From the NCBI GenBank assembly GCA_031261285.1, contig JAISKM010000070.1:1-64000 (forward strand): a stretch of DNA of 64,000 bases, given 5' to 3'. The notes beneath the pieces were generated by a model. It saw only the letters and a program-made list of their open reading frames with translations, did no database searches and had not been told where the DNA came from. The position numbers and the translations under genes are program-made. Position 1 is the stretch's first letter. Each line of letters starts with the position of its first letter. The stretch comes from Candidatus Symbiothrix sp. GTDB taxonomy: Bacteria > Bacteroidota > Bacteroidia > Bacteroidales > Azobacteroidaceae. Of this stretch, positions 17,990-20,108 are shown in pieces.

Positions 17990-18162
17990 TTATACCTTCA
18001 ATTTGTAATTCAATTTGCAAATATAATACTTTTTTTCGAAACTGAAAACTATTTTTTTGTAAAAGTGATAATCCAGATGTAAATTAAGATCAATCGCGCA
18101 CATCAGTGTGCTGTAAGATACTTCGGATTTTGCAAGTGTTTTAAACTATTTTTTATTTTAAT

Positions 18163-18517
18163 TTGGTGATTTAAAAAAAATGCTTTACCTTTGCAGCAAT
18201 TTGAAACCCGCAAAGCGTTGCGAAAAGGTGCGAAGGTCGTTTGATAACAATGCGAAAAGCGTTTAAATATTACTTTGCTTTAGAAAATCGGCAAAATTTT
18301 CAAGTAATACAAAGTGATAGACAACAAATGCCTTGCGTTCTTTGTTTGTATATAGTTATATTAGATACAAGTAAAGGCGCAGGTTCTGTTGTTTCATCTG
18401 TATTACTGGGTGTTTGCCGATACCTCTAAAGCGGATGAATTTAACAGTTCCTGCGCTTTTTTATGTTTAAATTTGCCGAACGGAGGGGACAGGGAGGCGA
18501 AAAAAAATTATGTACAA
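18163..18517 (+). ncRNA. Candidate structured 5' leader RNA with promoter (copy B)
   Basis: Promoter TTTG(18163)...TTTACCTTTGCA(to 18196); hairpin loop CGGCAAA (18289-18295) complementary to loop TTTGCCG (18413-18419); closing stem GCGCAGG(18377-18383)/CCTGCGC(18450-18456)+T6; conserved TTGCCGAACGGAGGGGACAGGGAGGCGAAAAAAAATTATGTACAAATG. Confidence 0.7.
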
Positions 18518-19616
18518 ATGAGAACATTTAATTTTAGGAGATTGCGGATCAAGTCCGCAATGACACTACTGGTTGCCGGTTTTCTGGTAACTGGTAACTG
18601 CCCAAGTGGCAATCGGTAGCGACGGCACCGTTACGCCGGGTGCACTGTTGGATTTATCACAAGCCACTGATGCCGGCGGCTTGTTGCTGCCACAAATTGA
18701 GAGCGCAGACACGCTCATTGAGGAGTTAAGAAAGCCCGGCATGCTGGTTTATAACAAAACAGATGGCAAAGTTTACACCTATAATGGCACCTTCTGGGCT
18801 GTCGGTGGTGGGGGATCTGACACTCCTTTGATGAATGTGGCGATAACGCCCAGCATACCCGTGGCGTTATACTCGACCGGCGGTTTAAAACAATTGAACC
18901 CTGCCATTTCTATTGCCGATTCCACGACGATAGTGTGGAAAAGTAGCAATACAGATGTGGCTGTGGTTAGTGATAAAGGTATAGTATCTCCTGTGGCAGA
19001 TGGGAATGCAGATATCACAGTTTCGTTTGGTTCACTAACCTCTGATCCTGTAGCTGTAACAGTAACCACACCTACTTGTGGTTTGCCTTTTACCGCTCCA
19101 TCTGATAAGGTTTATAATACTGCAAATTATAGTAACACCGGTTTAACTAATCTGTGTTGGACTACGACCAATTTACAGGAGGCTGGGCAAATTGCTACTT
19201 GCTACAGTAATAATTGTACTTCTTATCCTACTCGCGGTTATTATTATACGGTTGGAAACGCATCTGCTGCTTGTGCAGCTCTCAATGGAGACGGCGCCAT
19301 AGGCTGGCGATTGGCTACTTTGACGGAACATACCGCTTTGAAGGATGCTTTCCCTAATTTAGAAGCCGGTGTCGGTACCGTGGGTACTACCAGTACTTTA
19401 CAAGCCGCATGGAATTCAATCGAACATGCCGCGGGGGGCAATTACACAAATGGTGGCACTCGTACATGGGATGGCTGGAACCAATATCTTGAATTCTTTA
19501 CAAACGAAGCCTATGATATCGGGGTATGTTTCAATGTTGGGGCGGGCGCTTGGATCGATAATAATAATGTCAATGGGGCTGAATATTGGCCGTTGCGCTG
19601 TGTACGCGATTTGTGA
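18518..19616 (+). CDS. Secreted surface protein with BIG2-like and FISUMP-type C-terminal domains; frame broken at a 7-bp repeat in the signal peptide
   Basis: Signal peptide MRTFNFRRLRIKSAMTLLVAGFLVTG in one frame (18518-18619), mature domain AQVAIGSDGTVTPGALLDLSQ...WPLRCVRDL in another (to 19616). Confidence 0.75.
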
Positions 19617-19715
19617 TGTGGTTAGGCTTGACCGAAGAAGTATAATCCTTTGAATCTTTCTTTTTACACTTTTTTTGAAAAATAGTTGGTAGATTCAAAA
19701 AAATGCTTAACACGG

Positions 19716-19892
19716 GGGATGATTGTTTCCATCCCGATAGGGATGATAGCCCGGTAGAAATGTCAATCATCCCCACCTCCAGCATCCTGTTGGGATGCTA
19801 CCAAGCACAACAAAATGGTGGCATACCTACGGCATGCGGGAATGGCCGACGAACATTATTTTCTACCGAGCTACCATTCCTATCGGAATGCA
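19716..19892. repeat. Nested palindromic repeat block
   Basis: CATCCCGATAGGGATG, TAGCCCGGTAGAAA / TTCTACCGAGCTA, GCATCCTGTTGGGATGC, CATTCCTATCGGAATG. Confidence 0.75.
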
Positions 19893-19936
19893 GGGAACAA
19901 ACAAAAATTAAAAACAAATAGAAATGATGCTGGTGA

Positions 19937-20090
19937 ATGTAGCCCGTAGGGCTTTCAGATCAATAGAAAAACAGATGTCCCCTCCGAAATTATTGCCCGT
20001 AGGGCATACACGGTGAAAGCCCTACGGGCTTACGATAGGAGGGAATTGTTCATTTTCTATTGATATTAATGCCCTAACGGGCAAGGAAAA
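19937..20090. repeat. Second nested palindromic block
   Basis: TAGCCCGTAGGGCTTTCA / TGAAAGCCCTACGGGCTTA; ATCAATAGAAAA / TTTTCTATTGAT; TTGCCCGTAGGGCAT / ATGCCCTAACGGGCAA. Confidence 0.75.
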
Positions 20091-20108
20091 ATTTAAAAAT
20101 ATAAACGT

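Follow-up and report, generated by a model that had tools for sequence, protein, structure and literature searches.

Organization of the leader

The window analyzed here, a 64,000-nucleotide (nt) stretch of contig JAISKM010000070.1 from Candidatus Symbiothrix sp., contains copies A and B of a multi-copy RNA leader family. Leader B spans approximately 18198-18500 on the plus strand, upstream of a gene (18518-19616) encoding an Ig-like Big_2 domain and an 'RCVRDL' C-terminus. A Bacteroidetes-type promoter (TTTG...TACCTTTG, 18162-18193, with its -7 box at 18186-18193) places the probable transcription start near 18198, and a small 5' hairpin, P0 (18209-18222), is predicted to fold right after this start. 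Hairpin 1 (HP1; 18267-18318) consists of the stem ATATTACTTTG / CAAAGTGAT and the inner stem GAAAAT / ATTTTC, which are conserved in class 2 of the family, and carries three segments here termed v1 (GCTTTAGA, 18277-18284), v2 (ATCGGCAAA, 18287-18295) and v3 (AGTAATACA, 18303-18311). Downstream of HP1, segment 1 (CTTGCGTT, 18332-18339) is separated by a small hairpin (TTGTAT...ATACAA, 18346-18370) from segment 2 (GGCGCAGG, 18376-18383), the 5' strand of a terminator-like stem. The segments v3' (TGTATTACT, 18399-18407), v2' (TTTGCCGAT, 18413-18421) and v1' (TCTAAAGC, 18425-18432), the partners of v3, v2 and v1, follow in this order before segment 3 (CCTGCGC, 18450-18456), the 3' strand of the stem, and a run of uridines (U-run; TTTTTT in the DNA, 18457-18462). 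A second conserved element of the form GCC-GA...GA-GGC (GCCGAACGGAGGGGACAGGGAGGC, 18475-18498) lies directly 5' of the start codon (ATG at 18518, 61 nt past the terminator stem).

A preliminary description of this leader had reported the closing stem with its TTTTTT, a TTTGCYGA loop inside the long stem (here v2'), an upstream CRGCAAA loop (CGGCAAA, within v2), a stem-to-start distance of about 60 nt, a length of about 265 nt (approximately 262 nt from promoter to U-run in copy B), and a second element near the ribosome-binding site, of the GCCGAACG...GGGAGGC type. All of these lie at the positions given above, and the corresponding closing stem of copy A was likewise found on the minus strand. 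Copy A (approximately 296-650) has a -7 box (TTACCTTTG, 615-623), v1 at 527-534, v2 at 516-524 and v3 at 501-507, followed by segment 2 (427-437), v3' (408-414), v2' (395-402) and v1' (384-390). Its closing stem pairs GCGTGAGG (427-434) with segment 3 (CCTCACGC, 360-367) and runs into TTTGTTATTTT (349-359), and the element GCCGAACG...GGGAGGC (316-340) precedes the start codon at approximately 296-298. That these features are more than chance is confirmed by the fold of the whole of leader B (-98.1 kcal/mol, z = -4.7, more stable than 100 of 100 shuffled sequences) and by the recurrence of the same arrangement in 122 copies.

Distribution and common architecture

A BLAST search with the leader returned 42 matches in the Symbiothrix genome. 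R1, a covariance model built from 26 copies and describing only the second, long terminator-like hairpin (HP2), returned 107 matches in this genome at E ≤ 0.01 (the E-values are rough, as they derive from a shortened calibration), corresponding to 94 distinct places once overlapping and antisense matches were merged. Sixty-eight of the 94 places were read for the test set and the other 26 were left out. R1 matches were present in 55 of 120 sampled relatives, and a single weak match was obtained among 147 other Bacteroidota genomes. Loci found by a pattern scan of named genomes were confirmed by R1 in Bacteroides timonensis, B. acidifaciens, Phocaeicola massiliensis, Butyricimonas synergistica, Coprobacter secundus and others, and a Parabacteroides distasonis record likewise matches. 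A looser scan, accepting any inverted repeat with three helices, was dropped after yielding too many false positives. A phage origin was considered and rejected: no match to the element was found in phage records. A scan of viral contigs gave R1 matches in eight of 11 stretches, for which a host origin is possible.

The family is absent from Rfam and previously uncatalogued. Searching the whole window against Rfam at the gathering score identified a single transfer RNA and nothing else, and at a relaxed threshold four loci gave three below-cut-off matches, all to unrelated families. No similar leader was described in the literature searched, which includes only a minority of the subscription journals.

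In aligned copies and in weaker ones examined individually, the parts occur in a common order, namely promoter, HP1, linker, HP2, U-run and gene start. Between sequence classes the stems are wholly different and the loops differ too; the architecture alone is common. A riboswitch, which would have a ligand-binding core conserved in all copies, is neither favored nor disfavored by this comparison. A T-run follows the stem in 120 of the 122 copies, a TAnnTTTG box is found approximately 168 nt upstream in 74 of 122 (compared to 10 of 122 after shuffling), and the start codon mostly lies approximately 45-56 nt past the U-run. Genes downstream of the leader in the Symbiothrix genome mostly encode exported proteins that carry a 'GGLLLPQ' motif and have lectin-like ends; those in relatives are very varied.

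Copy-specific pairing code

In HP1, v1 and v3 occupy the internal loop and v2 the apical loop, with v3', v2' and v1' at the corresponding places in HP2. The segments are complementary and nested within a copy, not between copies. At least 18 Watson-Crick pairs are distributed over the three helices (4-11 bp, median 8) in 116 of the 122 copies, and the summed cis pairing score over all 122 was 2554; 10,000 permutations gave 1284 on average and never more than 1535. R1 was built without any HP1 sequence, so the search itself did not select for this complementarity. Within the BLAST set from the Symbiothrix genome, pairing scored 24.7 in cis and 13.4 in trans, and the best partner was the cis one in 32 of 35 cases. 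The pairing of two loops proposed in the preliminary description was recovered as one of three copy-specific pairings; the v1 helix (GCTTTAGA/TCTAAAGC), the v3 helix (AGTAATACA/TGTATTACT) and the pairing of segment 1 with segment 2 had been missed.

Among 18 class-2 copies the v segments diverge at 0.40-0.58 of sites and the remaining stems at 0.00-0.06, whereas the upstream intergenic DNA diverges at 0.28. For v1-v3 the values are 0.43-0.58, set against about 0.05 in the remaining stems. Four pairs of copies in the Symbiothrix genome that are at least 95% identical outside the v segments have no v segment in common, and no pair has all three alike. Between the orthologues G004 and G028 (92% identical), changes in v1 and v2 are mirrored in v1' and v2'. 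The probable reason for this divergence is that a cell contains dozens of near-identical leaders, among which cross-pairing would be harmful.

Departures from Watson-Crick pairing inside the v helices amount to nine G.U, two A.C and three other pairs. G.U pairs are tolerated in RNA and A.C pairs are not; thus the excess of G.U, although the numbers are small, favors the transcribed (sense) strand as the functional molecule and argues weakly for an RNA-level function rather than a DNA-level one, such as that of an integron attC site, a hairpin of single-stranded DNA recognized by an integron integrase.

Diversity-generating reverse transcriptases were considered as the source of the codes and rejected: such enzymes are present, but changes on one arm are matched on the other and, judged by eye, are not confined to adenines. 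Four reverse transcriptases (L306-L309; G000 C96, C138, C170 and C114) carry GxxxSQ, a motif typical of diversity-generating retroelements, and L309 includes a 107-bp stretch with 76% identity to approximately 15155-15260 of C12. A link between these enzymes and the C-terminal variability of the surface proteins is possible.

Unique codes would also be expected if the main product were a terminated noncoding RNA of approximately 265 nt that recognizes itself as a homodimer, or targets the nascent leader of its own locus in trans, with the code conferring locus specificity. The promoter, the terminator-like end and the conserved length are compatible with such an RNA, paralogous small RNA families occur in Bacteroides (PMC11697453), and the lack of any two copies with all three segments alike is as if cross-reaction must be avoided. 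However, the nearly constant distance to the downstream start codon ties the element to genes, and pairing in cis requires no trans partner; we regard this explanation as unlikely. A separately terminated RNA of this length, the alternative put forward in the preliminary description, is nonetheless possible and could coexist with attenuation.

Competing folds and the proposed mechanism

A further helix is formed by segments 1 and 2 (1:2). Its pairing scored 6.8 in cis, whereas shuffled linkers gave 4.45 (maximum 4.63). Segment 1 changes together with segment 2 across classes (CUUGCGUUC:GGGCGCAGG, UUCACGU:GCGUGAG, UUCCAUGUCU:AGGCAUGGGA and CUCAUGUCA:UGGCAUGAG). G.U pairs make up 27% of this helix and 14% of the helix between segments 2 and 3 (2:3). 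Two alternative structures follow from these pairings: an antiterminator, in which the v helices and 1:2 build one long hairpin that excludes 2:3, and a terminator consisting of 2:3 and the U-run, with segment 2 common to both.

The preliminary description had suggested attenuation through kissing of the two loops. Sequence comparison and energy models support the attenuator logic, but a single kissing loop is insufficient: the v segments do not overlap the closing stem, so one loop-loop contact cannot by itself exclude it. Mutual exclusion arises instead because segment 1 competes with segment 3 for segment 2.

ViennaRNA calculations predict that the two folds are near balance in native copies from the Symbiothrix genome, with antiterminator-minus-terminator energies of -0.5, +1.1 and -4.0 kcal/mol for classes 1-3, respectively; in relatives the difference was -6.6 kcal/mol. 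When HP2 of one copy was placed behind HP1 of another copy of the same class, the terminator was ahead by 9-13 kcal/mol and the antiterminator was favored in only 0-4% of these chimeras. As the chimeras lose the antiterminator fold, it is the matching code that would make this fold competitive.

A promoter upstream and a gene downstream, a stem with a U-run, and a covarying, mutually exclusive antiterminator helix are thus found together, and we consider it, on balance, probable that leader B acts in cis as an RNA attenuator and belongs to a new leader family of Bacteroidales. From its own promoter, transcription would yield, in turn, HP1, segment 1, segment 2, the v3'-v2'-v1' arm, segment 3 and the U-run. 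The ON fold would arise when segment 1 pairs with segment 2 and v3, v2 and v1 zip onto v3', v2' and v1'; the resulting long imperfect hairpin would occupy the 5' strand of the terminator, allowing polymerase to pass. In the OFF fold, HP1 would keep its own stem, segments 2 and 3 would pair, and transcription would halt at the U-run, so that an RNA of approximately 265 nt is released. The copy-specific codes would lock each leader to itself.

Several observations weigh against this mechanism. In models that ignore pseudoknots and co-transcriptional folding, leader B itself leans toward the terminator by 4.1 kcal/mol or toward a hybrid structure by 2.5 kcal/mol, depending on the constraint. The terminator hairpin is unusually long (approximately 80 nt), and the U-run is weak in some copies. 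With regard to the code, G066 and G027, which belong to different families and distant genera, have kept the same code, so that divergence is not universal, and v2 varies less than v1 and v3 do, frequently reading GCC in relatives; fast divergence is therefore typical of the many-copy genome without being a rule.

Moreover, both hairpins carry their v segments in loops, where these could pair without the terminator stem opening. They could then be the loop-loop contacts of one stable pseudoknot that coexists with the terminator stem, in which case there would be no switch and the leader would be a structural 5' untranslated region or an element of processing or stability. The placement of the v segments in internal and apical loops, without overlap with the stems, agrees with this structure, as do helix lengths of at most one helical turn. 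Nevertheless, covariation links segment 1 to segment 2, and the latter is also a paired strand of the terminator stem; since segment 2 takes part in both 1:2 and 2:3, at least one helix must be mutually exclusive. The computed near-balance of native leaders also argues against a single stable structure, and we judge the pseudoknot to be a rather unlikely explanation.

Additional complementarities occur downstream of the terminator. By eye, GGACAAAA in class 3 (e.g., L130 and L131) is complementary to the 3' strand of the terminator, TTTTGTCC, and in classes 1 and 2 GGGGAC, close to the start codon, is a possible partner for AGUUCC. These pairings could possibly form a second switch at the ribosome site.

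Genomic surroundings

The reading frame of the gene behind leader B is broken near codon 33 relative to intact paralogues, and the remainder is open from 18606; the break (18518-18606) may represent an assembly error, a pseudogene or a switching repeat. A palindromic repeat (GATTGCGGATCAAGTCCGCAATGACA) occurs at several sites, including 10228, 18540 and 20143 of the window. Where it falls in surface genes it is translated within the signal peptide (RIKSAMT), and some paralogues carry tandem copies. A promoter-like stretch (19687-19711) precedes the second gene (20109) and is followed by no leader, the interval 19712-20108 being filled with palindromic repeats.

Elsewhere, genes for small serine recombinases (Pfam Resolvase) end within approximately 100 nt of the element at four loci (L026, L030, L051 and L066), the copy at L030 having an in-frame stop. 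Upstream of the element at L186, L203 and G059:C416 lie genes that by eye resemble Rpn-type PD-(D/E)XK nucleases/transposases, and the sequence common to G028 and G007 is limited to the element of approximately 355 bp.

Another explanation is that the RNA guides DNA recombination, as the bridge RNA of IS110 does or in the manner of a serine-recombinase element; its loops would then serve as guides, and the element would travel together with cargo genes. The two hairpins, with their variable internal loops, are reminiscent of how bridge RNAs are laid out (PMC11208160), serine recombinases directly upstream could be partners, and G028 and G007 share nothing beyond the element. However, the IS110 transposase (PF01548) had no match in the Symbiothrix genome, on which ground an IS110 bridge RNA was rejected, and a serine recombinase was rejected as partner since it is directly upstream at the four loci only and missing from most copies. 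The loops are, moreover, complementary to each other, and the G.U and A.C counts favor a sense RNA function. We consider a recombination guide very improbable.

Relation to known systems and implications

The leader resembles classical cis-acting attenuators, with their 1:2 antiterminator and 2:3 terminator, in having its own promoter, a stem and U-run before the gene, and a helix that competes for the 5' strand of the terminator. It differs in lacking a recognized leader peptide or known aptamer, in having three hypervariable, copy-specific antiterminator helices, and in occurring as tens of paralogues per genome. Attenuators of the pT181 type likewise act through pairing of hairpin loops, and altered loops produce independent regulators (PMC3753616); their partner is a separate antisense RNA, whereas here both partners reside in one RNA. 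Orthogonal sets of pT181-type attenuators have been made by engineers, with the shortage of natural attenuators named as a main obstacle (PMC3753616), while the set described here is natural.

The IS110 bridge RNA is alike in its two hairpins with variable loop segments, but the partners of its loops are the target and donor DNA, and it depends on the IS110 recombinase (PMC11208160), whereas the loops of the leader pair with each other in a genome without IS110 transposase. The FopS small RNAs of Bacteroides thetaiotaomicron, compared here by their description, are also a multi-copy RNA family of Bacteroidales with sigma-ABfr promoters; they act in trans on susC mRNAs via a shared seed, and private codes are not described for them (PMC11697453). 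The same study mentions a six-member small RNA family adjoining transposases or invertases (PMC11697453).

More tentatively, Bacteroidales genomes may contain up to approximately 70-90 mutually orthogonal switches, each recognizing itself by a three-part code and driven apart by selection against crosstalk; we regard this as a possibility rather than the expected outcome. If the mechanism holds, the leaders would constitute a widespread, uncatalogued class of RNA in Bacteroidales that reaches the gut genera Bacteroides, Phocaeicola, Parabacteroides, Butyricimonas and Coprobacter and places surface and accessory genes under its control. The family would then represent a natural library of the orthogonal switches that synthetic biologists had to engineer, and would make it possible to test directly if crosstalk between RNAs shapes the evolution of genomes.
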